From: Pseudomonadota bacterium
GTDB taxonomy: Bacteria; Pseudomonadota; Gammaproteobacteria; Steroidobacterales; Steroidobacteraceae
Assembly: GCA_021787615.1 (NCBI GenBank)
Contig: JAJYLP010000018.1
Location: forward strand, 1 to 46,883
Direction of reading: 5' to 3'
Length of the DNA: 46,883 bases
Shown here: positions 5,161 through 46,883 of the stretch, in pieces
Layout of the letters: every line of letters starts with the position of its first letter
How positions within the stretch are numbered: the stretch's first letter is position 1
Translations under genes and position numbers: made by a program
The notes under the pieces: generated by a model
Database searches by the model: none
Told to the model about the DNA's origin: nothing
The model's input: only the letters and a program-made list of their open reading frames with translations

Positions 5161-6366
5161 CTAGCGGTCCGCCGCTGGCGCGCTGCGCGCCGCTTCGGGA
5201 GAGACCTTGGCGCCGGGGCGCGCATCCTGGATGCCGGAGACGATGACCCGATCGCCGTCGGTGAGGCCGCGCGAGATGATCCAGTCATTGCCGCTCGACC
5301 CCTCGGTCTTTACGCTCTTCTTGACGACCGTGTCGGCGGTCGAAACCGTCAGGACGTAGGGGTTGCCGGCGCTGTCGCGCTGCAGCGCCGCCTGCGGCAC
5401 CAGGAAGGCGTGATCGGCCGTGCCGACCGTGAGGCGCACGTTCACGAACATCCCGGGCAGGAGTTGGTGATTCGCGTTGGGCAGCACGCCGCGCAGGGCG
5501 ATTGTGCCGGTGGTCGGGTCGACGGTCGCGGCGCGGAAATCGAGCGCGCCGGGCTGTCCGTAGGGCGTGCCGTCGGACAGGGTGAGCCGGATCTGGGCCC
5601 GCTGCGGCGCCAGCGTGATCAGATGGGCCTGCGCGTCCGCGGTGAGCTGTTCCTGGCGCGAGGCGGGCTCGTCGAAATTGACGTAGATGGGATTGATCTG
5701 CTCGACGGTGGTCAGCAGCGTCGGGGTGCCCTGGCCGACCATGGCGCCCTCGGTGACCTGCTGTTCGCCGGCGATGCCTGCGATCGGCGAGGTGACGTCG
5801 GTGTAACTGAGATTGATGCGCGCCGCCTCCACGTTGGCCTGCGCCTGCTTCACCAGCGCGGCCGTGGAGCGCTCGGCCGCCTCGTCGGTGTCGAGCTGGG
5901 ACTCGGACACCAGATAGTGGCGGATCAGCACCCGATCGCGCTGCGCGGTGACGGCCGCGTTGGCGGCATTGGCTTTGGCCTGGGCGAGTGCGGCCATCGC
6001 TGCATCGAGAGCGGCCCGGTACGGCGACGGATCGATCTCGAACAGCGGCTGACCCGCCTTGACCTCGGCGCCCTCCGTGTAGCGACGCTGCAACAGCACG
6101 CCCGCGACCCGGGCCAACACGTTCGCCTGGCGGTACGCCGACAGTCGCCCCACGTACTGTTCCGTCAGCGGCAGCTGTTGCGGATGCACGCTGACGACTG
6201 ACACGACCGCAGGGGCGGCCGCAGCTTTCTTCTGGCCGGAGGAGCTGCAGCCCGCGAACAGCAGCGCGGCGGGCACGACCAACAGAAGCACAACACGATT
6301 CGCCGGGCGGGCATGGCGGTACGTGCATTTCTTTGCACTTCTTGACAAACGCGTCTCGGGGGGCAA
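5161..6366 (-). CDS. RND efflux periplasmic adaptor lipoprotein (membrane fusion protein)
   Basis: Adaptor subunit linking the RND pump to an outer-membrane channel. The 401-residue frame carries a signal peptide with lipobox LFAGC (Cys about residue 40), then the AcrA-like order of beta-barrel and lipoyl half-motifs around a coiled-coil hairpin. The family-typical stretch VGRLSAYRQANVLARVAG is followed by GVLLQRRYTEGAEVKAGQPLFEIDP. The start is uncertain: TTG 6366 follows a weak TGGGAG, and a second TTG lies six codons in. The n-region before the hydrophobic core is long with either choice. First gene of a two-gene operon with the pump. No TetR-type regulator is found next to it, which is unusual for such operons but not rare. 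Confidence 0.93.
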   Translation of the reverse strand: MPPETRLSRSAKKCTYRHARPANRVVLLLVVPAALLFAGCSSSGQKKAAAAPAVVSVVSVHPQQLPLTEQYVGRLSAYRQANVLARVAGVLLQRRYTEGAEVKAGQPLFEIDPSPYRAALDAAMAALAQAKANAANAAVTAQRDRVLIRHYLVSESQLDTDEAAERSTAALVKQAQANVEAARINLSYTDVTSPIAGIAGEQQVTEGAMVGQGTPTLLTTVEQINPIYVNFDEPASRQEQLTADAQAHLITLAPQRAQIRLTLSDGTPYGQPGALDFRAATVDPTTGTIALRGVLPNANHQLLPGMFVNVRLTVGTADHAFLVPQAALQRDSAGNPYVLTVSTADTVVKKSVKTEGSSGNDWIISRGLTDGDRVIVSGIQDARPGAKVSPEAARSAPAADR

Positions 6367-6386
6367 GAGTAAGACTCCCAGGTGCC

Positions 6387-6402
6387 AGCCACGTCAGTGG
6401 CT
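6387..6402. promoter_or_regulatory. Short perfect inverted repeat upstream of the efflux operon
   Basis: AGCCAC (6387-6392) and GTGGCT (6397-6402) form a perfect 6-bp inverted repeat with a 4-base centre, about 20 bp upstream of the adaptor start. It could be an operator half-site pair or a leader hairpin. Nothing else in the 242-bp gap 6367-6608 looks like a regulatory protein gene. The repeat is short enough to occur by chance. Confidence 0.25.
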
Positions 6403-6608
6403 CTGATTCCATCGCCAAATCACGGGCGCTAGACAGTCGATCTTAGCGATGCCTGCCTGGGCAAGCTAGTGATAATCGGCAGAACGACAGAATCGGAAGA
6501 TCAGTCCCGATGCACGCAGTGAGGCGTGCGGCGGCGCGTGCGCGCTCGGAGAGTGCGGACTCCGCGGACGTCCTTGTCCGAGAGCCCGGCGGCGGCGCGC
6601 AGAGGGGG

Positions 6609-8231
6609 TTAGGGCGCGCCGCCGCGCGAGGGATGATCGAGGCGCGGGTAGAGCGTGAGCAGCGCTTGCGTCACGCCGTTAGTCCAACCGAAGCCGTCCT
6701 GCAGCGGGTACTCGCCGCCGCCCCCCGGCAGTTCGCGCTCGACGTTGTATTTCTCGACCAGCTTGCCGGTGTTGCGGTATACGCGCCGCACGGTGGCCAC
6801 CCAGCGTCGCGCGATTCGGAAGGCGAGCCGGGGGTGGCCGTAGCGGCGCAGCCCCTGGACCGCGATCCACTGCAGAGGCGCCCAGCCGTTCGGCGCATCC
6901 CACTGTTGCCCGGTGACGATGGTGGTGGTCACTATGCCGCCGAGCTGCAGCAGGCGGGCGCGCGTGACGGCGGCCACTGCGTTCGCCCGTTGCGCATCGG
7001 CCAGTCCGACGAACAGCGGATAGAGCGTCGCGGCACTGAGCTCGCCGGTGCGTCGGCGGCTGCGCCAGTCATAATCGGAGAAGTACCCGCGCCGCGCAGC
7101 CCACAGATACCGGTCGAGGGCGTTGCGCCGGCGGCGCGCACGAGCCGCGAAGCGGCGCGCGCACGGCAGGTCATGCCGCGCGGCGCATCCGCGGGAGATG
7201 GCCCGCTCCATTCCATATAACAGACTGTTCAGGTCGATCGGCACGATGTCGGTGGTGCGGATGGTGGCGAGGTGACGCTCGTCACCCAGCCAGCGCGAGC
7301 TGAAGTCCCAGCCGCTCTCGGCCGCGGCGCGCAGGTCGCGATAGACGCGCGCCGGCGGCCGGCCGGATGCGCGAGCCAACAACACATCGTTGCGATAGGA
7401 CTCGTCGCGCGGCGTGTCAGCCTCGGACCAATAGCGGTTGAGCAAGGCCCCGTCGGGCATCGCCACCACGTTGCGCCGCGCCTGTCCAGGGCGAAGGCCT
7501 GCCGCGCCCCGCATCCAATACGCATACTCGCGGCGCAGCGTCGCGAGATGATCGGCCCAGGCCCGCGCCGGATCATGCGGATCGAGCAGCCCGACCATCA
7601 GGTAATAGACGGGGGGCTGGGAGCGCGAGAGATAATAGGTGCGCGTCCCGTTGGGAATGTGCCCGTAGGTGCGGATCAGATAGGAGAAGTCATCGATCAT
7701 GTCCCGCGCGCTCGCCATGCGCCCGTCGGGAATGAGCCCGAGCATCGTGAAATAGGAGTCCCAGTAATAGAACTCCCGGAACCGCCCGCCCGGAATGACG
7801 TAGGGCTTGGGCACGTACAGCAGCGAGGAGTACAGCGGCGGCACGGCCGCCGGGCGGGTCAGCAGCGGCCACAGCGCCGCGATGTGCGCCCGCAGCGTTG
7901 CGGTCTTGGGCACGCGCGTGCGGTCGGGCGGCGGCAGGGTGAAGTTGCGCTCCACGAAACGCAACAGCGCCTCGCGTGTGCGCGGATTGTTCTTGCGGAA
8001 GCGTTGCAGAACGACTTGGGGCGAGGCCTTGGGGACGGCGTCGACGAAGGTCTTCCCGTCCGGGAACACTCCGGCCATCTGCACGCGCACGAACAGGGGG
8101 CCGAACAGTTTCGCGGGGGTCGGATAGAAGGCGTGCGCCGCTGCGCCCGTGATCCCCGCCAGCGCCAGCGCGGCGCCCAGCGCCGCCGCGCGGCGCACCC
8201 CCTGGACGGGAATCCTCAGATGATTGCTCAT
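6609..8231 (-). CDS. treA: Periplasmic trehalase (GH37)
   Basis: Hydrolyses alpha,alpha-trehalose to two glucose molecules in the periplasm. The 540 residues match the length of bacterial TreA. A Sec signal peptide is visible (basic start, then an Ala/Leu-rich core to about residue 34). Both trehalase signatures are present: PGGRFREFYYWDSYF and QWDAPNGWAPLQW. The GH37 catalytic pair is predicted as Asp309 (in ESGWDFSSRWL) and Glu507 (in GGGGEYPLQDGFGW), matching the conserved acid and base of the E. coli enzyme. The ATG at 8231 lacks a strong Shine-Dalgarno. It is divergent from the glycosidase trio, and the shared intergenic region has a perfect inverted repeat with a good minus-strand promoter through it (TTGCAA, 17 bp, TATCAT), which would give a leader of about 240 nt. 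The context fits uptake and use of alpha-glucosides rather than stress-related trehalose turnover. Confidence 0.95.
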   Translation of the reverse strand: MSNHLRIPVQGVRRAAALGAALALAGITGAAAHAFYPTPAKLFGPLFVRVQMAGVFPDGKTFVDAVPKASPQVVLQRFRKNNPRTREALLRFVERNFTLPPPDRTRVPKTATLRAHIAALWPLLTRPAAVPPLYSSLLYVPKPYVIPGGRFREFYYWDSYFTMLGLIPDGRMASARDMIDDFSYLIRTYGHIPNGTRTYYLSRSQPPVYYLMVGLLDPHDPARAWADHLATLRREYAYWMRGAAGLRPGQARRNVVAMPDGALLNRYWSEADTPRDESYRNDVLLARASGRPPARVYRDLRAAAESGWDFSSRWLGDERHLATIRTTDIVPIDLNSLLYGMERAISRGCAARHDLPCARRFAARARRRRNALDRYLWAARRGYFSDYDWRSRRRTGELSAATLYPLFVGLADAQRANAVAAVTRARLLQLGGIVTTTIVTGQQWDAPNGWAPLQWIAVQGLRRYGHPRLAFRIARRWVATVRRVYRNTGKLVEKYNVERELPGGGGEYPLQDGFGWTNGVTQALLTLYPRLDHPSRGGAP

Positions 8232-17872: not shown

Positions 17873-18258
17873 GTCGAATGGACCTCGCGAGGGGACGCAG
17901 CAGCCGGTGATTCTCGCACGCGGCGGCGGTCCCGCACAGCGGCTCGCGCGCCTCGCGCTCTTGCGGCGCAGCCGCCGCCGTCCGATGAGCCCGGGCCGGC
18001 AACATCCCGCCTCGCCTTATCCGGCGCGAGGAAGGCTCACGCAGGCGGGGTCCGCCAATTGCACTCGGCAGCAACGTTTGCCGAACGACGCTGCTCGGAG
18101 CGACCCGGATCAGCCCGCCGAGTCCAATCGCGTAGCCGGCATTGCTCGCGGCCGAGGGAATTCTCAGTTTTGGCGCGCTGGACTGTCGCTATCAATCGCG
18201 TACCCAACACGGCCAAAATCTCCCCTCACGTCGCCGTGAGGGGAGAATCGCAGTGGCC
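17873..18258. other. Intergenic region between TonB receptor and TPR/oxygenase gene
   Basis: A 386-bp space with no credible gene. Its right end holds the receptor's terminator (annotated separately). The left end holds the ribosome site of the TPR/oxygenase gene. No second copy of the 12-bp operator arm is present, so the oxygenase gene is not obviously part of the operator-linked set unless it is reached by read-through. Confidence 0.5.
18219..18246 (-). terminator. Rho-independent terminator of the TonB receptor gene
   Basis: TCTCCCCTCACG (18219-18230) pairs perfectly with 18235-18246 (12-bp stem, 4-base loop). On the minus strand the stem is followed by TTTT. It starts 13 bp after the receptor stop codon, the right place for an intrinsic terminator. 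Confidence 0.8.
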
Positions 18259-20859
18259 TTACCAGTGGTACTTGACCATTATGTTGACTTCGCGGCCAAC
18301 GATCGAGCGGCCGAAACCGACGTTGTTCTGCACCGTGTTGCCGCCGAACCGGGCGTTACCCTCGGTCAACCCGAGCTGGTTGGTGAGGTTGGAGCCGAGC
18401 ACGCGGAACTCCCAGTGTGAACCGATCATGGCATCGATGCCCGCAGCCAGGTCGTAATAGGCGGGCAACGGCGTCAACCCCGTGTTGTCCTGGAAGCGCA
18501 GGCCAATGTCCTCGTACGTCAACTCCTCAGTCAATGTGCCCCAGCTGAAAGCCTGTATGTCGCTCGGGCTTATCCGGAACTGATACTTCGGCAGACGCGC
18601 GAGCTGATTGCCGTTGATCGTGCCGCAGACCGTCTGATTGTTGATGTTTGTGTACAGGAAGCAGCCGCGGAAGTTGGTGTAATAAGCATCTTCCCAGTTG
18701 CCGTTGAGCGATATCCTGAAGGACCTCAGGGCCGAGATATCACTGGCCGCGAAGGGGCTGACACTGCCTACGAGCCGCACGCCGGTGGAGGTCGATCCAT
18801 AGGTGGAGGCCGGGCCGATCGGCACGTCATTGACATTCGTGGGAGTGTACGCGATGCCCTTGAATGTCTTGCGGTAAACCGATGCGTTGATGTAGGTCCA
18901 GCGGTTCTGAATCTTGAAGCCGAATTCGTAGTTCTGGACCGTTTGCAGGGGCACTCTGCTCGGGCATCCGTTCGATCCGTTGTAGACGTTGCACCGAACA
19001 GCGTCGAAGTTCTCGAAGAGCACGCCGTTGTTGACGCGCACGTAGGCGCTCATGTGATTGTTGAACTGGTAATTTGCACCCACGGAGTACGTCGGCATGG
19101 TGTTGTTTTCATGGCCATGCGACCACGTGCCGTTGGGCAATTCGACCGCGTTGTCCCACAGGTCGTACGGGGTTCCCATCTGAACCGGCGAGCTGTTGGT
19201 CGTCTCCTGAGACAGGTTGATGTGCTCGATGCGGATCCCGGCGTCGAACAACCACTTGTCAACCTTCCATTGGTCGGCAAAGTAGGGGGCAATATTCGTG
19301 GCGCTGCCGTTCTGGAGGATGTAATAACCCCCGTTGGCGCTCACGATGCCTTGCGGGCTGGTGACCTGGTAGATATTGCCACCGGCGGCGGCGGACAGGA
19401 TGATGGGCGCCGCATTTGGCCGATTGGTGATCAGCACGTTGGAGCTGAGCGACCAGTTGTCGCTCATGGTGTAGTGCGCCAGATACAGGCCGAGGGTCGC
19501 GGTATTGCCGAAGCCGAGGTCCTTGTTTACGCGAAATTCATCGATGTAGCTCCGGATCTTCTTCTGCACGTACCAGACCTGCTGGGTGACCACGCTTTGA
19601 TTGAAGTTCGCGGGCTGACCGTTGGCATAGGAGGCCTGCACCATGCCGGTGGTCAGGATGCTGGGCAGGGTCAAGCCCGAAATGAACGACGACAGCGTAG
19701 AGGGATTGCCGTTGTTGATCAGAGCGTGCGTCGGCACAAGCCCGCCGTCGAAGATGAAGTTATTGCTGATCGACCAGCCGTTGCCCAATCGGTCGTGCAT
19801 CGCCGAGCCGATATAGTTCAGATCCGCGCCTCGGCCCTTGCTGATGTTGTCGTTCTCGAAACAGTTGCACGCCGGATTCGGTACTTGGAAATTCTCGAGC
19901 TGGTAGCTGTTGTAGGTGGAATCGAGCTGATTGAAGCCGGGATAGATCCCAACCGAGCCGTTGTGCACGGTATAGGGGAAGTCGGCGACCCATTGATTAT
20001 GGTCGTGCAGGGTTCGGGCCCAGAACATGATCGATCCATGGGCGAGATCATGCTTCAATGTGACCGTCAGCTGCCCACCGTTGTCGGCGGGATATTGAGG
20101 GTTTCGGATACCGTTTGATTTGCGGTAAAAGCCGCCGATGCTGCCGTACCAGCCGTCAGTCAGCTTGCCGCTTGCGAACGCGTCGATGCGGTACAGACCC
20201 TGGGTTCCGTAAGTGACGCCCACCGATCCTTTGGCCTGGTTCGAGCCGGTCCGCAGGATGAAGTTGGCCGTCGCACCCGGCTGGCCGGGGCCGAAGATTG
20301 CGCTGGGGCCGCCCTGGACAATCTCCACCCGTTTGACCGTGTCGTCCATGCGGATCAGCGAGCTGTTGTCCATGAACGATAGATACGGGGCGCCGTAGAG
20401 GGGCGAACCCTCGATCATGGTCGTGAAATACGGTGAATCGCCGCCGCCGAGCGGAAAGCCGGCCACGTCGATATTGACGCCGGTCTGTCCGCCGGAGGCC
20501 TCCGGCCAAACGCCGGGCGAAAGTTTATAGATTTCGGCTGCACTCGACGGGTCCGACATTGCGATCTGATGTCTGGACAGCGCGACGATGTTGTAGCTCG
20601 CATCCAGCTGTTTCACCGCCATCGCGGTGGCGGTTACGACGACTTCTTGCAGCGACTGGGCCGGCTGAGTCGCCGCAGCGGCGGGCCTGGCGGGCGCCGG
20701 CTTGGCGAGGGCCGTGCCGGAGGCCGTGAGCACGGCGGCCCCCCCGAGAATGCTGGCAACCACCGCGGCGACGCTGTGCGGCGCAGCGGCATTGCGTGCC
20801 GCCGGACGGCTTGCCGGGCCGACGCCCGCGCGGGGCGCCTTCTTCTTGTTCACTCTCAT
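18259..20859 (-). CDS. TonB-dependent outer-membrane receptor, probably for an alpha-gluco-oligosaccharide
   Basis: An 866-residue TonB-dependent receptor. The long basic signal peptide ends near ALAKP, and a TonB box-like LQEVVVTATA follows. The plug domain includes IEGSPLYG and VKRVEIVQGGPSAIFGPGQPGATANFILR, and a 22-strand barrel ends in the aromatic residue Trp (MVKYHW). A strong AGGAGG ribosome site precedes the ATG. The gene is less GC-rich and richer in Asn/Thr/Tyr than its neighbours, as usual for barrels. A perfect copy of the treA/GH operator overlaps a TTGACA promoter about 340 bp upstream, and an intrinsic terminator follows. By sequence alone a siderophore ligand is possible, but the shared operator favours a carbohydrate. 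ExbB, ExbD and TonB are not in the window. Confidence 0.92.
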   Translation of the reverse strand: MRVNKKKAPRAGVGPASRPAARNAAAPHSVAAVVASILGGAAVLTASGTALAKPAPARPAAAATQPAQSLQEVVVTATAMAVKQLDASYNIVALSRHQIAMSDPSSAAEIYKLSPGVWPEASGGQTGVNIDVAGFPLGGGDSPYFTTMIEGSPLYGAPYLSFMDNSSLIRMDDTVKRVEIVQGGPSAIFGPGQPGATANFILRTGSNQAKGSVGVTYGTQGLYRIDAFASGKLTDGWYGSIGGFYRKSNGIRNPQYPADNGGQLTVTLKHDLAHGSIMFWARTLHDHNQWVADFPYTVHNGSVGIYPGFNQLDSTYNSYQLENFQVPNPACNCFENDNISKGRGADLNYIGSAMHDRLGNGWSISNNFIFDGGLVPTHALINNGNPSTLSSFISGLTLPSILTTGMVQASYANGQPANFNQSVVTQQVWYVQKKIRSYIDEFRVNKDLGFGNTATLGLYLAHYTMSDNWSLSSNVLITNRPNAAPIILSAAAGGNIYQVTSPQGIVSANGGYYILQNGSATNIAPYFADQWKVDKWLFDAGIRIEHINLSQETTNSSPVQMGTPYDLWDNAVELPNGTWSHGHENNTMPTYSVGANYQFNNHMSAYVRVNNGVLFENFDAVRCNVYNGSNGCPSRVPLQTVQNYEFGFKIQNRWTYINASVYRKTFKGIAYTPTNVNDVPIGPASTYGSTSTGVRLVGSVSPFAASDISALRSFRISLNGNWEDAYYTNFRGCFLYTNINNQTVCGTINGNQLARLPKYQFRISPSDIQAFSWGTLTEELTYEDIGLRFQDNTGLTPLPAYYDLAAGIDAMIGSHWEFRVLGSNLTNQLGLTEGNARFGGNTVQNNVGFGRSIVGREVNIMVKYHW

Positions 20860-39466: not shown

Positions 39467-39811
39467 TCAGTACTCCTCGCGCTCATCGTCGTCGTCCCAG
39501 TCGTCCTCATCCTCGTCCTCATCCTCGTCCTCGTCCTCGTCCTCGTCGTCCTCCTCGTCCTCGTCCCAGTCCTCGTCCTCTTCTTCTTCGTCCTCATCCT
39601 CATCCTCGGGCTCGGCCCAGCCCTCGGGCTCTTCGGTCTCCTCGAGGTCCATCTCGTGCCAGGTTTCCAGGTCGAGCTGCTCGATCTCGCCGTCGAGGTG
39701 CTCGATCTGGACCAGCTCGGCATCCTCGTCCACTTTGAGTACGCGGAAGGATTCGTCTTCTTCAAGGTTCTCGTACCACTGGCCGGGAACCGGTTCGTAA
39801 TCTCTGCTCAC
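39467..39811 (-). CDS. Acidic protein with Asp/Glu tail, DUF6763-like
   Basis: A 114-residue protein. GTG 39811 is chosen because GAGAGGA precedes it and the recognisable domain begins at once; the frame is open to 39967. The first 60 residues (YEPVPGQWYENLEEDESFRVLKVDEDAELVQIEHLDGEIEQLDLETWHEMDLE) form a small beta-rich domain that resembles DUF6763 proteins of gammaproteobacteria, by memory. The last 45 residues are almost only Asp and Glu, encoded by a 6-bp-period DNA repeat. The length of the tail may vary between strains. Function unknown. It is divergent from proB. Confidence 0.8.
   Translation of the reverse strand: MSRDYEPVPGQWYENLEEDESFRVLKVDEDAELVQIEHLDGEIEQLDLETWHEMDLEETEEPEGWAEPEDEDEDEEEEDEDWDEDEEDDEDEDEDEDEDEDEDDWDDDDEREEY
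39481..39608. repeat. Coding low-complexity repeat (Asp/Glu codons)
   Basis: A run of TCCTCG/TCCTCA hexamers on the plus strand, encoding the acidic tail on the minus strand. Such a tract can slip during replication and change length in steps of two residues without breaking the frame. Confidence 0.8.
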
Positions 39812-39912
39812 CGATGGGGTCCTCTCACTTGGCGGCCGCGCAAGTTTAGGGGTTGCGCTGGCCGGGAGCAACGCACGGCCGAGCCGCGCTCGCGCGAACG
39901 ATTCGCCGCACG

Positions 39913-39918
39913 TATAGT
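39913..39918 (+). promoter_or_regulatory. Candidate -10 element placing the proB transcript start at its ATG
   Basis: TATAGT (five of six consensus bases) ends six bases before the A of the proB ATG at 39925. The expected start of transcription, about seven bases downstream, falls on or next to that ATG. No Shine-Dalgarno is present before it. The -35 region is poor. Confidence 0.4.
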
Positions 39919-39924
39919 TTTCGC

Positions 39925-41073
39925 ATGTCCACCCGACTGCAAGCGGACTCTCCTCTGGCCAAGGCACGGCGCATCGTGGTTAAGGTCGGCTCGGCATTGC
40001 TGGTCGAGGGGCGCAGTGGTCGCATCAATCGCGCCTGGCTCGAGAGCCTCGTCGAGGACCTCCTGCGGCTGCGCCGCCGGGGCCAGCAGGTCATCCTGGT
40101 GTCATCGGGGGCCATTGCGCTCGGGCGCAGGCAGCTCTCGCTCGCCAAGGGACCGCTGCGACTCGAGGAAAGCCAGGCCGCCGCGGCCGTCGGCCAGATC
40201 CGCTTGGCGCACGCCTACAAGGAACTGCTCGAGAGCCGCCAGGTGACGGTCGCTCAGGTGCTGCTGACGCTCGAGGACAGCGAGCGGCGCCGGCGCTACC
40301 TCAACGCGCGTGCCACACTCGAGACCTTGCTGGCCCTCGGTGCTCTGCCCGTCATCAATGAGAACGACACGGTTGCCACGGCTGAGATCCGCTACGGGGA
40401 CAACGACCGACTTGCCGCGCGCGTGGCACAGATGGCCGGCGCCGACTGTCTCATCCTGCTCTCGGATGTCGATGGCCTTTACACGGCCGACCCGAACCGC
40501 GATCCGAGAGCGCAGTTCATCGACGAAGTTCGCCAAATCACCCCTGAAATCGAGGCGATGGGCGGCCGATCGGCCTCCGGGGTCGGCTCCGGCGGCATGG
40601 CTACGAAGCTGCTCGCCGCGCGGATCGCGGTGGCCGCCGGCTGCCGCATGTGCATCGCGGCCGGGCACCCGCGCCATCCGGTCCGCCGTCTCGAGGAGGG
40701 GGCGCGCTGCACCTGGTTCCTGCCGGGCGCGAGTCCGGCGACGGCCCGCAAGCAGTGGATCGCCGGGACGCTGCGGCCGGCCGGCGCGCTGACCATCGAT
40801 CACGGCGCGCTGCGCGCGCTGCTTGCCGGCCGCAGCCTGCTGCCCGCTGGAGTGACTGGTGCACGCGGGCAGTTCGAGCGCGGCGACACGGTGAGCGTTC
40901 TGACGCCGGAGGGCATCGAAGTGGCCCGTGGCATCATCGCGTACAGCGACAGCGACGCGGCGAAGATCATCGGCCGCCAGTCGGCTCAGATTCCGGACAT
41001 CCTCGGATTCCGCGGCCGCGATGAGCTGATTCATCGCGACGATCTGGTACTGTTGCAGTCCTCACCGACATGA
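39925..41073 (+). CDS. proB: Glutamate 5-kinase with PUA domain
   Basis: First step of proline synthesis: ATP-dependent phosphorylation of glutamate. 382 residues from ATG 39925, the usual size for the two-domain enzyme. The amino-acid kinase domain has [44 protein letters not shown] and [14 protein letters not shown], and [14 protein letters not shown] near its end. A C-terminal PUA domain follows (about residues 285-370, [16 protein letters not shown]). Proline feedback inhibition is known for the family. The ATG has no Shine-Dalgarno, and a -10-like TATAGT is close by, so the message may be leaderless. The stop overlaps the proA start (ATGA). Confidence 0.97.
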
Positions 41074-42347
41074 GCGCGAACTCAAACTCTGGGCTTGGCG
41101 AGACGATGGAGCGCATGGGCCGCGATGCGGTGGCCGCCGCGGCGGTGCTGGCGCGCGCCACTGCCGCCGTGAAGGACGAGGCGCTCGGCCGCGCCGCGAA
41201 CGCGATCCGCGCGCAGGCGGGCGAGGTTCTGAGCGCCAATGCTCATGACCTCGCCGCCGCCCGCGCCGCCGGACTCGGCGGCGCGCTGCTCGATCGCCTG
41301 GCGCTCAACGCCGAGCGGCTCGAGGCGATGGCGGGCGGCATCGAGGCCGTCATGAGGCTTGCGGACCCCATCGGCACCATCATGGCCGAATGGCAGCGCC
41401 CGAATGGACTGAAGATCCAGCGCGTGCGCGTACCGCTCGGGGTGATCGGAATTATTTACGAGAGCCGCCCGAACGTCACGGCCGACGCCGGCGCGTTGTG
41501 CTTGAAGTCGGGCAACGCCGTGATTCTGCGCGGCGGGTCCGAAAGCCGCCACTCGAACGTCGCCATTCACGCCTGCCTGACCGAGGGGCTGCGCGGCGCG
41601 GGACTGCCGGCCGAGTGCATCCAGCTGGTGCCGACCACCGATCGCGCCGCGGTCGGCTACATGCTCTCGGGCATGACCGAATATCTCGACGTGATCGTGC
41701 CGCGCGGCGGCAAGAGTCTGGTCGCGAGGGTCAGGCAGGAGGCGCGGGTGCCGGTGATAGGGCATCTCGAGGGCAACTGTCACGTGTACATCGATCGGGA
41801 CGCCGACGTGCGCATGGCCGAGGCCATCGCGCTCAACGCGAAGATGCGCCGCACCGGCATCTGCGGCGCCGCCGAGACGCTGCTCATCGATCGGGCGTGT
41901 GTCGCGACGCACATGACCCCCGTGGTGCGTACTCTGCTCGATGCCGGCTGCGAGGTGCGCGGCGATGAGACCGTGCAAAGCGCCGACCCGCGCGTGCGGC
42001 CGGCGAGCGAGGAGGACTGGTACACCGAGTACCTCGATGCGATCATCGCGGCAAAGGTGGTCGATGGCGTGGACGGGGCGATCGCGCATATCGGCCGCTA
42101 CGGCTCGGCGCACACCGAATCGATCGTGACTGAGAATCAGGCCACCGCCGAGCGCTTTCTGCAGCGGGTCGACAGCGCCATCGTGCTGCACAACGCCTCG
42201 ACGCAGTTCGCCGATGGGGGCGAGTTCGGCCTGGGGGCGGAGATCGGCATCTCCACCGCGCGCTTCCACGCCCGCGGACCGGTCGGTGTCGAACAGTTGA
42301 CGAGTTACAAGTACATTGTGCGCGGCGCCGGCCAGGTCAGGCCGTAG
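41070..42347 (+). CDS. proA: Gamma-glutamyl phosphate reductase
   Basis: Second step of proline synthesis: NADPH-dependent reduction of gamma-glutamyl phosphate to glutamate semialdehyde. The 425 residues match ProA. Motifs: [48 protein letters not shown] and the active-site Cys in [48 protein letters not shown] is the family-typical C-terminal block. Its ATG overlaps the proB stop by four bases, so the two enzymes, which share a labile intermediate, are made together. The 3' end overlaps the convergent molybdopterin fusion gene by 11 bp. Confidence 0.97.
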
Positions 42348-43932
42348 CGGCGCGCGCGAGCGCGGCCAGCCCTCCGCGCAGGGAGAACACGTGCGCATGG
42401 CCCCTGGCGCGCAGCTCGCTCGCGGCCGCGAGGCTGCGCACGCCGCTTGAGCAGATCAGCAGGCAGCGCTGCGAGAGCGAGGCGGGCGGCGGGCCGTAGA
42501 GCAGCTGCGCGAGCGAAATCGCGCTGACGGCCGCGCCCGGGGCCGGCTCGCGCGCGCACTCGGCCGGCTCGCGAATGTCGATGAGGGTGTAGCCCGCCGC
42601 GAGCGCCGTGTGCAGCGAATCGAACTCGATCTCCACGCTCCCCGCGTCCGCGCTCGGCAGAGTGCCTGCGCCGCGCGCGGCGTGCCGGGGACAGTCCGGC
42701 GCGCGCCGGGCGCGCAGGCGGGTCACGTTCAGGGTGAGCAGATCCACCATCAACACCGCATCGGTGAGCTGCCCGGGCAGCCCGAGCAGCACCTTCAGCG
42801 CCTCGAGCGCCTGCAGAGTACCGAGCACGCCGGGAACCGGTCCGAGCACGCCCGCTTCCGCGCAGGCGCCGACCAGGCCGTCGCGGGCCGTTTCCGGCCA
42901 GACGCAGCGCAGGCAGGGTCCCTGCCCCGGCCGCACCACCTGCAGCTGTCCCTCGTACTGATACACGCTGGCGAACACTGCCGGCTGGGCGGAGCGCACG
43001 CACGCGTCGTTCAGCGCCAACTTGCTCGCGATGGTGTCCGTGCAGTCGATGACGATATCGTACCCGGCAATGAGGTCGGACGCGTTGTCCGGGTCGAGCC
43101 GGGTGCGATAGGTCCGAACGTCGAGGGCGGGATTCACCGCGCGCAACCGCTCGGCGGCGAGATCGACTTTGGGGCGCCCGGCGTCCCCGAGCGCGTAGAG
43201 CGGCTGGCGGTGCAGGTTGGATGCTTCCAGCACATCGGCATCCACCAGGCCCAGCCGGCCGATCCCCGCCGCAGCGAGATAGCTCATTGCAGGCACGCCG
43301 AGCCCGCCGCAGCCGACGATCAGCACCGCGGCCCGCCCGAGCCGCGCCTGGCCGGCCGCGCCGACCTCCGGCAGCACCATCTGGCGCGAATAGTCCGGAG
43401 CCGGCGCACGGTGCGCCTCGGAATGCCGCGCGGCCGTGTGTTCGTGCTCGTGGCGGTGCCGATGCGCCGGCGCGCGGGCGCCGGCCTCGGCGAGCGGCTC
43501 GGCGCCCGCCGCGCAGCGCTCGCAGTTCACCCAGCCGGAGTCCCCGTCGAGGTAGTGTTCCTTCTTCCAGATCGGTACGCGGTGCTTGACCGCATCGATG
43601 ATGTAGCGGCAGGCGAGGAACGCCTCGTGGCGGTGCCGCGCCGCGACGCCGACCCAGACCGCGGTTTCGCCGATCTCGAGCGCTCCGAGGCGATGCACGC
43701 AGGCGGCCCGTTCGACGCCAAACCGCGCGACCGCTTCGCTGACGATCCGCTCGCCCTCCTTGAGGGCGAGCGCCTCGAACGCCTCGTATTCCAGGCGGCG
43801 CACGCGCCGCCCCTCGTTGTGGTCGCGGACCCAGCCCTCGAAGCTGCTGTAGCCGCCCGCAGCCGCGCTCGTAAGCGCCGCACGCAGCGCGGCGGGATCG
43901 ATGGGTTCGGTGCTGAAGCGAAAAAGCGTCAT
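42337..43932 (-). CDS. MoaE-MoeB-rhodanese fusion (molybdopterin synthase large subunit, MoaD adenylyltransferase and sulfurtransferase)
   Basis: A single 531-residue chain with three molybdenum-cofactor functions. Residues 1-145: MoaE, with [18 protein letters not shown] and the catalytic Lys pair (K116 and K123 in VPIWKKE). Residues 155-175: His-rich linker (seven His). Residues 180-415: MoeB/ThiF adenylyltransferase with [18 protein letters not shown] (207-212), SNLHRQ and DCTDT (296-300). Its first zinc pair is Cys340/Cys343 (CLRC), but the second is Cys414-Pro-Arg-His417 in place of CxxC. Residues 435-531: rhodanese domain with intact active-site loop CSSGVRS (Cys494). ATG 43932 lies 53 bp after the MobA-MoaD stop; the ribosome site is weak. 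It would use MoaD from the neighbour as substrate. Last gene of the cofactor operon. The fusion runs through one unbroken frame. Confidence 0.93.
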
Positions 43933-43985: not shown

Positions 43986-44846
43986 CTAGCCGCCGGCCAC
44001 CGGCGGGATGAACACCACAGTGTCGCCGTCGGCGAGCGGGGCGGCCCACTCGGCGAACTCGGCGTTCACTGCTACGCGCAGCAGCTCCGGCGGCAGCGTG
44101 AAGGGGTGGCGTTGCTTCAGTTCGCGGTACAGCTCGCGCGCGGTGGCGGCGGCGGTGTGCAGCGACTCGCCGCTGCGCCCGGCCTGCTCACGCAGCAGCG
44201 CGTAATACTGCACCGAGATGTGTTTGTCCGCTGCCAGCCGCGGCGTGCTCAGGGTATCGGATGCCTGTTGAAACTCCTCCGGCGTGTTGACGTTCTCCAG
44301 CGCGCCGGGCGCCGGCTGATCGAGCAGCTCGGTGTCGGCGCCGAGCAGAAACTTCCGCGGACAGAGCTGCCCGGCAGCCGCGGCAGCGGCCAGCGCCGAA
44401 TGGCTCGCCGGCTCGTAGATCGCGCACAGCGGTTCGGGCAGCCCGTCGTGGCTCGAGCGATAGGCGGTGGCGGCGCGCCCGGGGGCGCGCGCAGCGATCA
44501 GGTGCCCGAGCGTGTGCGCATCGAGGAACGGCAGGTCGCAGGCGAGCACGAGCCAGGCCGCGTGTGGATGGGCCGCCTGGGCGGCGAGGATGCCGCCGAC
44601 GGGACCGAGGTCCTGGGGCGCATCCACGATCAGCTCGTAACGCGTGCGCAGCGGATCGTCGCGCTGCTCGGCGCGAACCGACACAAAGGCGTGCTCGAGG
44701 CGGTCCTGGAGCAGCGCCATGGTTCGCTCGAGCTGACTCAGGCCGTGGTATTCGAGCGCGGCCTTGTCCCGCTGCATGCGGCGGCTGCGTCCGCCTGCGA
44801 GCACCAGGCCGTAGAGCGGTGCGGCGGGAGTGCCGGCGTCCGTCAT
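43986..44846 (-). CDS. MobA-MoaD fusion (molybdenum cofactor guanylyltransferase and molybdopterin synthase small subunit)
   Basis: A 286-residue two-domain protein. Residues 10-195 are MobA: LAGGRSRRMQRDKAALEYHG (16-35, GTP/Mg loop), ACDLPFLD with the Mg-binding Asp103, EPLCAIYEP and the C-terminal NVNTPEEF. Residues 209-286 are MoaD, a ubiquitin-like sulfur carrier: ISVQYYALLREQAG and the end VVFIPPVAGG, with the Gly-Gly needed for adenylation and thiocarboxylation left free at the true C terminus. The join is a short linker (SDTLSTPRLAADK). ATG 44846 overlaps the moaC stop (ATGA). No separate moaD or mobA is seen in this operon. The physical link may bring the last nucleotide-attachment step close to molybdopterin synthase. 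Confidence 0.93.
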   Translation of the reverse strand: MTDAGTPAAPLYGLVLAGGRSRRMQRDKAALEYHGLSQLERTMALLQDRLEHAFVSVRAEQRDDPLRTRYELIVDAPQDLGPVGGILAAQAAHPHAAWLVLACDLPFLDAHTLGHLIAARAPGRAATAYRSSHDGLPEPLCAIYEPASHSALAAAAAAGQLCPRKFLLGADTELLDQPAPGALENVNTPEEFQQASDTLSTPRLAADKHISVQYYALLREQAGRSGESLHTAAATARELYRELKQRHPFTLPPELLRVAVNAEFAEWAAPLADGDTVVFIPPVAGG

Positions 44847-45349
44847 GCCCGCGTGCCCTTGCGCGCCGCGGCGCGCTGGTAGGGGCGCTTGCCGCCGGAC
44901 TTGGCGAGCAGCCGCACCCCTTCGATTTCGATGTCGTGGGAGAGCGCTTTGCACATGTCGTAAATGGTCAGGGCCGCGACCGAGGCGCCGGTGAGCGCCT
45001 CCATTTCCACACCGGTGCGGTGGTGGACCGCCACGCGGCAGCGGATGCGGATCTGCCCGCCCGGGCGCTGCTCGATCTGCACCGAGCAGTGCTCGAGTCC
45101 CAGGGGGTGACAGAAGGGGATCAGCTCGTGCGTCCGTTTGGCCGCCATCACACCGGCGATGATCGCCGTGTCGAATACCGGACCCTTGCGGGTGCGATGG
45201 CCGCTGCGGCGCAGCTCGGTGGCGACCGGGCGCGGCAGAATCACGCGCGCCTCCGCGGTCGCCTCGCGCAGCGTGACCTCCTTGCTGCCGACGTCCACCA
45301 TGGCCGGGCGATTGCGCGCATCGAGATGGGACAGCTTGCTCGGCGCCAT
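44843..45349 (-). CDS. moaC: Cyclic pyranopterin monophosphate synthase
   Basis: With MoaA it converts GTP to cyclic pyranopterin monophosphate, the first cofactor intermediate. 168 residues from ATG 45349, which overlaps the moaA stop by one base. Conserved features: LDARNRPAMVDVGSKEVTLREA near the start, KGPVFDTAIIAGVMAAKRTHELIPFCHPLGL in the middle, and TGVEMEALTGASVAALTIYDMCKA with the substrate Glu/Asp and Lys residues. The frame is open upstream into moaA, which is ignored. Its TGA overlaps the MobA-MoaD start. Confidence 0.96.
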   Translation of the reverse strand: MAPSKLSHLDARNRPAMVDVGSKEVTLREATAEARVILPRPVATELRRSGHRTRKGPVFDTAIIAGVMAAKRTHELIPFCHPLGLEHCSVQIEQRPGGQIRIRCRVAVHHRTGVEMEALTGASVAALTIYDMCKALSHDIEIEGVRLLAKSGGKRPYQRAAARKGTRA

Positions 45350-46448: not shown

Positions 46449-46883
46449 CTACCAGCGGTACAGTGGCGCGACGAATCCGGCCGGATAGGTGTTCGGGCCG
46501 GGCGGCAGCTCCACGAACCCGTCGGTGCCGGCGAGAGAGGTGAAGTCGCCGGAGCCCTGGGTGGGGCGCGGCAGTGCCCGGCAGCACCCGTGCTCGTCCG
46601 TGACGAGCCGCACCGGCAGGAATAGCGTGAGCGCGGGCTTCACGGTAAAGGCCTCGGCGAGCGCGATCCGCTCGGGCGCGGTGGTGCGCTCGCCCTGGGC
46701 GGCCGCGAGCGCCGGGAGCACGTAGCGCGAGACGCACACGGCGGTGGAGACGGGATTGCCGGGCAGGGCGAGCACGGCGGCGCCGGTGGGAGCCATGCCG
46801 AACCACAGCGGCTTGCCGGGCCGTTGCGCCACCTTGTGGAATACGCAGCGCACGCCGAGCGCATCGAGTGCCTGGGGCACCAG
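46449..46883 (-). CDS. moeA: Molybdopterin molybdenumtransferase MoeA, C-terminal part
   Basis: The C-terminal 144 codons of MoeA, which inserts molybdate into adenylylated molybdopterin. The frame runs off the right edge, so the start is outside; a GTG at 46880 is internal. Visible motifs: VAQRPGKPLWFG and VLALPGNPVSTAVC, which belong to the MPT-binding (MoCF_biosynth) domain, then the C-terminal domain IV beta-barrel. The gene is first of the visible part of the operon moeA-moaA-moaC-mobA::moaD-moaE::moeB::rhodanese. Confidence 0.93.
   Translation of the reverse strand: MVPQALDALGVRCVFHKVAQRPGKPLWFGMAPTGAAVLALPGNPVSTAVCVSRYVLPALAAAQGERTTAPERIALAEAFTVKPALTLFLPVRLVTDEHGCCRALPRPTQGSGDFTSLAGTDGFVELPPGPNTYPAGFVAPLYRW

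Follow-up and report, generated by a model that had tools for sequence, protein, structure and literature searches.

A MoaE-MoeB-rhodanese fusion at the end of a molybdenum cofactor operon in the Steroidobacteraceae

The window analyzed here, the whole 46,883-nt stretch of contig JAJYLP010000018.1 (assembly GCA_021787615.1), encodes a protein of the Steroidobacteraceae in which MoaE, MoeB and rhodanese domains are joined. Judged from its sequence, this fusion contains the residues for all three activities in one intact chain. The chain is likely to be a working large subunit of MPT synthase, with adenylation and sulfuration of its own MoaD as further functions. Carrier activation, sulfuration and use for the molybdopterin dithiolene would then be placed on a single chain.

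Domains and catalytic residues of the fused chain

The initial annotation described MoaE, MoeB and rhodanese in one unbroken 531-residue frame, and this description holds. The frame lies on the minus strand, which that annotation left unstated, and runs from 43932 down to 42337 as 531 codons plus a stop, while the plus-strand reading of the same interval is interrupted by a stop (Table 1). All three Pfam domains exceed their cut-offs. MoaE (PF02391) is found with E=3.7e-36 and 124.2 bits against a cut-off of 23.4, and ThiF (E=3.9e-76) and Rhodanese (E=2.3e-05) both lie above their gathering scores. Among the 25 NCBIfam families listed, the MoeB/MoeZ equivalog cut-offs are not reached, the best being PRK08762.1 with 313.1 bits against 449.

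Table 1. Features of the fused gene and its operon in the window
Feature	Coordinates	Strand	Evidence
moaE::moeB::rhodanese fusion gene (531 aa)	42337..43932	minus	translation, Pfam, unbroken orthologues
MoaE domain, residues 7-118; K116, K123, R36, H100, R101	43579..43914	minus	Pfam, E. coli equivalence, 96/96 conserved
C137-E-R-C140 then His-rich linker, residues 137-178	43399..43524	minus	conservation, composition, pLDDT
ThiF/MoeB adenylyltransferase domain, residues 181-415; R242, K255, D299, C340/C343, C357, C414	42688..43392	minus	Pfam, alignment, conservation
Rhodanese domain, residues 442-525; C494 in CSSGVRS	42358..42609	minus	Pfam; C494 conservation
mobA::moaD fusion (286 aa), MoaD tail VAGG	43986..44846	minus	Pfam NTP_transf_3 + ThiS; structure model
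moaC	44843..45349	minus	Pfam MoaC
moaA	45349..46401	minus	Pfam Radical_SAM + Mob_synth_C
moeA 3' part, continuing past the window end	46449..46880	minus	Pfam MoeA_C + MoCF_biosynth

The residues claimed for the chain (K116, K123, GCGGLG, DCTDT and C494) proved correct when it was aligned with the E. coli K-12 genes. In the MoaE domain, K116 and K123 correspond to E. coli MoaE K119 and K126, R36 to R39, and H100/R101 to H103/R104. In the ThiF domain, which carries the GCGGLG and DCTDT motifs, R183, R242, K255 and D299 correspond to R14, R73, K86 and D130 of E. coli MoeB, and C340, C343, C357 and C414 to C172, C175, C187 and C244. These E. coli positions are the catalytic or zinc residues. Among 96 distinct fused proteins, R36, H100, R101, K116, K123 and R242 are each present in all 96, while D299 and K255 each occur in 95 and fall in a gap in the remaining one. 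C357 is found in 93/93 proteins reaching that column (three gaps) and C494 in 92/92 (four gaps); the gaps come from L107, with an in-frame stop inside ThiF, and from L064, L108 and L114, which are ended by contig ends. The stop in L107, a Krumholzibacteriota record with its fused gene at 5989-7485, may be a sequencing error or decay. Three zinc-position cysteines, C340, C343 and C414, are retained, and the fourth position is H417, giving CxxH rather than CxxC. This position is His in 57 and Cys in 16 of the 96 proteins, the others having G, A or R. Histidine is able to bind zinc.

The AlphaFold2 model of the chain has three confident domains, with a mean pLDDT of 88.1 and a pTM of 0.59. Residues 147-171 fall below a pLDDT of 50, so that the first linker is predicted to be disordered, as do residues 421-429. 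With a disordered linker and a pTM of 0.59, no fixed channel or domain arrangement is predicted. The best fold matches in Foldseek are Uba4 (6yub_A) and then ThiF, with MoeB (1jw9_B) eighth, and by sequence the best PDB match is E. coli ThiF. No MoaE structure is among the 50 Foldseek matches listed, and MoaE was assigned by sequence.

The linker between MoaE and MoeB has a composition of its own. Over 93 proteins, 583 of the 2763 residues at positions 141-178 are histidine (21.1%), whereas the second linker has 1.8% and the rest of the chain 2.7%, and an HxH motif occurs in 84/96 fused proteins but in only 2/96 in the second linker. The preceding cysteines are also conserved, C137 in 95 and C140 in 71 of the 96 proteins. 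All 20 standalone MoaE proteins of the genus likewise end in a short tail with CxxC followed by His, which indicates that the MoaE tail became the linker. The conserved Cys and His-rich linker is a new observation of this analysis, and it is a guess that the CxxC of the MoaE tail and the His-rich stretch might bind metal.

The operon and its MoaD

The fusion gene is the last of a same-strand Moco operon, following the 3' end of moeA, moaA, moaC and mobA::moaD, and the ATG of mobA::moaD overlaps the moaC stop. On the other side, a convergent gene terminates at 42347, 11 bases inside the fusion gene. By Pfam this gene belongs to the aldehyde-dehydrogenase family and its neighbor is an amino-acid-kinase/PUA protein; we take the two to be proA and proB. 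Elsewhere in the window, an 866-aa ORF on the minus strand (18259-20859) resembles by eye a TonB-dependent outer-membrane receptor and coincides with a dip in GC to 59% at 18001-20000. A small minus-strand ORF at 39467-39967 has a C-terminal part consisting of a long acidic Asp/Glu run.

In the window, MoaD is the C-terminal half of the MobA::MoaD chain, and its GG end is free. MoaE and MoaD are thus not on one chain, as they are in the MoaX type, since MoaD lies on the MobA chain. The AlphaFold2 model of MobA::MoaD is confident (mean pLDDT 91.4, pTM 0.72). A moaD gene lies immediately upstream in 105 of 107 fused loci, a count from which two repeats of the window (L001 and L007) were removed and in which some genomes are still counted twice. 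In 50 of these 107 loci, mainly from the family of the window, MobA::MoaD is one ORF. The MoaD C-terminus is GG in all 141 loci where moaD was seen. MobA::MoaD is the only plausible Moco carrier of the fusion in the window.

Distribution of the fusion

The window's assembly is a draft of 176 contigs, and an assembly error or frameshift might in principle have joined separate genes. However, two sister species with 93-94% identity carry the same unbroken frame, and the fusion is found in one frame in 29 of 58 genus genomes: 26 have one full-length match (own genome included) and three more (G005, G010 and G050) have a single ORF that aligned in two pieces. Isolate genomes of Rhodanobacter and Dyella, e.g., Dyella jiangningensis (CP007444.1), also contain the unbroken fusion. 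The initial annotation had called for independent assemblies, and in these no frameshift splits the gene. An artefact, whose probability is negligible, is ruled out by the independent assemblies and isolates. A simple base-composition model puts the chance of an open 531-codon frame at 73% GC at about 2e-4, and the frame is judged real more because of homology, full-length relatives reaching down to 35-41% identity, than because of this estimate.

The spread of the architecture, which the initial annotation had proposed to search, is now clearer. Among 99 relatives, 92 have a match to the protein at E <= 1e-20. In the order, 82 of 247 genomes, own genome included, match at E <= 1e-75; 63 of the matches are full-length, of which 52 are free of stops and the other 11 have at least one inside. 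Outside the order the fusion is rare: it was counted in 2/370 genomes of the class (even draw) and 4/397 of the phylum, own genome included in both, by full-length matches at E <= 1e-95 or 1e-75; counts of this kind, that of the order included, can miss distant or contig-broken fusions. The best 80 loci listed in GTDB contigs include Rhodanobacter, Dyella, Frateuria and Povalibacter. They also include MAGs or scaffolds titled Hydrogenedentota, Kiritimatiellota, Lentisphaerota, Melainabacteria, Bdellovibrionota, Zixiibacteriota, Chlamydiota and Armatimonadota, so the phyla reach beyond Pseudomonadota as far as record titles go, and MAG titles may be wrong. Spread by plasmids was rejected, as none of the 66 plasmid records matching the fusion covers 80% of the query.

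Split and reduced relatives

In some relatives the two halves are separate adjacent genes, and in others MoaE stands alone; the physical link is therefore dispensable. In four of the split loci (L056, L059, L065 and L083), 3-6 nt separate the moaE stop from the start codon (ATG) of the MoeB-rhodanese gene, which lies in the same frame. In L117 the gap is 9 nt, again in frame, and in L118 the two genes overlap. Because the split loci are nearly contiguous in frame or overlap, joining or splitting the genes takes little.

MoaE alone occupies the same operon position in 20 of the 58 genus genomes. In a quick IQ-TREE of concatenated MoaC, MobA, MoaD and MoaE segments (80 rows, SH-aLRT support only, midpoint root), the fused, split-adjacent and standalone states need 7 changes. 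The 20 standalone rows of the genus, counted without L128 and L129, which belong to other genera, fall into a single clade with support 96, adjacent to a clade of 32 fused rows with support 95. Both belong to a group of 60 rows whose remaining members are all fused apart from L116, where what looks like a split falls at a run of N. From this placement, the standalone clade of the genus appears to have lost the MoeB-rhodanese half. Most outgroup rows were fetched with a fused query, so the sampling leans toward fused forms, and a quick tree of this kind cannot decide on transfer.

Other MoaE and ThiF-family genes

The initial annotation had raised the possibility that separate moaE or moeB genes lie elsewhere while the fused copy has decayed. 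No second moaE was found in the window's genome, where the fusion is the only MoaE, and the residues of the fusion are intact. For moeB the outcome is divided, since a second MoeB-rhodanese paralogue does exist, yet the fused copy is not decayed. Two further ThiF-family genes are present in this genome. One, called here C5-type, encodes a 379-aa ThiF-rhodanese protein and adjoins an 88-aa ThiS-family gene; this arrangement is at 2985-4394 of L119, and the ThiS-family protein ends in GG. The other is a ThiF gene about 1.3 kb from a ThiS-family gene and probably serves thiamine.

In relatives with a standalone MoaE, no MoeB-type gene other than the C5-type was found. The comparison used 28 genus genomes with a completeness of 90% or more and a contamination of 5% or less, G037 being left out as having no MoaE match. 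The C5-type gene is present in 10/10 genomes with standalone MoaE and 6/17 with the fusion; G003, where the match is a fragment of 90 residues, and G049, with a match of 47%, were scored as lacking it. This contrast has a Fisher p of 0.001, although the standalone group is one clade and not independent evidence. In G046 and G056, the ThiF-family genes are the fusion and a ThiF only, and in G113, a member of the family, the fusion is the only ThiF-family gene found. Where this is the case, the fusion must supply the MoeB function, if Moco is made.

Proposed mechanism and alternatives

If the chain acts as its residues suggest, the MoeB domain would adenylate the glycine at the C-terminus of MoaD, which in this operon is the second half of the MobA::MoaD chain, and the rhodanese domain would give persulfide sulfur to form the MoaD thiocarboxylate. 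The MoaE domain would use two thiocarboxylates to convert cPMP to molybdopterin, with MoaD leaving one site and binding the next. The disordered His-rich linker would keep both sites close at a fixed 1:1 ratio, and the chain would amount to an MPT synthase that carries its own recharging station on a tether. What is observed is the intact frame, the three domains, the conserved residues, the operon, the sole MoaE and, in one relative, a sole ThiF-family gene; we infer from there to the reactions, to a use of this MoaD at both sites and to a possible kinetic gain through tethering. Several points weigh against a three-function enzyme. The C5-type protein, with its own ThiS-family neighbor, could also serve MoaD, the split and reduced forms indicate that the tether is not needed, and the pTM gives no arrangement of the domains.

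A benefit of the tether is possible, but it has limits. As described in PMC4326299, adenylation needs MoaD to dissociate from MoaE and then form a complex with MoeB, the second sulfur needs dissociation or exchange of the spent MoaD, and two charged MoaD are needed per MPT. The MoaD-COSH then reassociates with MoaE, according to PMC5372717. Because MoaD must leave MoaE for recharging, the tether can shorten the trip but not remove it. This bears on the initial annotation, which had one chain use, activate and sulfurate MoaD and further suggested that MoaD could pass between active sites without release. The first part probably stands, based on the residues, the operon, the sole MoaE and the wide conservation, while the second is not supported, given the required dissociation (PMC4326299), the disordered linker and the split or reduced relatives. 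Strict channelling would mean that MoaD cycles from MoeB through rhodanese to MoaE and returns, all inside a single dimer and with no equilibration with the cell. It is accordingly unlikely; moreover, the MoaD of the window is bulky, being fused to MobA. Channelling would fit the location of all sites on one chain, the adjacency of moaD where seen and the demand for two charged MoaD per MPT.

It is quite possible, though we lean slightly against it, that the joined form is a plain co-expression fusion, made when the stop codon between adjacent and translationally coupled moaE and moeB-rhodanese genes was lost; the two enzymes would then go on acting independently by way of free MoaD, with no benefit from the tether. 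The near-contiguous and overlapping split loci agree with such an origin, as do the 11 of 63 full-length order matches that read through one or more stops and the genus members with MoaE alone, which do without a joined MoeB-rhodanese half. Against it, the joined form has been conserved for long and keeps all its residues in records titled as nine phyla among the best 80 loci listed. This and the 52 unbroken order matches suggest some value of the joined form, but both fit neutral retention too. It seems improbable that the MoeB-rhodanese half has a quite different role, acting in some other Ubl or sulfur pathway (e.g., that of thiamine or of tRNA thiolation) and just sharing a chain with MoaE. 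ThiF-type E1 domains are common to several pathways, and the ThiF match in the PDB and the unreached NCBIfam cut-offs would be consistent with that role. However, the upstream moaD, the Moco operon and the genomes where no other MoeB-type gene was found argue for molybdopterin synthesis.

An elaboration of the tethered MPT synthase is more speculative still. The half-sulfurated intermediate might stay bound to MoaE while its own chain reloads the spent MoaD, and a single cPMP would then receive both sulfurs locally. A metal ion bound by the conserved Cys and His-rich linker beside the MoaE site, e.g., copper, might hold or protect the new dithiolene. Copper has reportedly been seen on molybdopterin in plant Cnx1G, in work by Kuper from 2004.

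Comparison with known systems

The mycobacterial MoeBR and MoeZR, human MOCS3 and yeast Uba4 share the ThiF-rhodanese order and active cysteines of the fusion but lack its N-terminal MoaE; MoeBR and MoeZR are described without MoaE in the relevant part of PMC3227635. MoaX of Mycobacterium tuberculosis (MoaD::MoaE) and other MoaD-MoaE fusions likewise connect MoaE with another component of this sulfur cycle. However, MoaX joins the carrier to the enzyme and, according to PMC4326299, must be cut after GlyGly to work, whereas here the GG end of the carrier is free on another chain. The MoaD::MoeB, MoaD::MoeBR and MoaC::MoaE fusions of Archaea and some bacteria concern the same pathway step with other pairs. 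The MoaE::MoeB::rhodanese arrangement is absent from the fusions given in the corresponding section of PMC11237513. In excerpts of the open-licence literature it is undescribed, while MoaD-MoaE, MoaC-MoaE, MoaD-MoeB, MoaD-MoeBR and MoeB-rhodanese fusions are described. Architecture databases surely list the fusion, as the genomes have been public for years. The survey of E1 enzymes by Burroughs, Iyer and Aravind may include related architectures.

For annotators, the fusion means that a genome with no separate moaE and moeB genes may nevertheless be able to make the cofactor. With joined, split-adjacent and reduced forms found in nature at one operon position, the gene is also a good system for asking if cofactor synthesis is limited by MoaD shuttling and if a tether is of help. 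E. coli MoaE and MoeB share the aligned catalytic residues and most zinc residues with the fusion, although the fourth zinc-ligand position lies in CxxC in E. coli and CxxH in the fusion. In contrast to the single chain, E. coli moaE and moeB are two genes about 45 kb apart, and its MoeB has no rhodanese domain. Overall, what is new in the fusion is the way its known parts are arranged, and it does not amount to a new kind of system.
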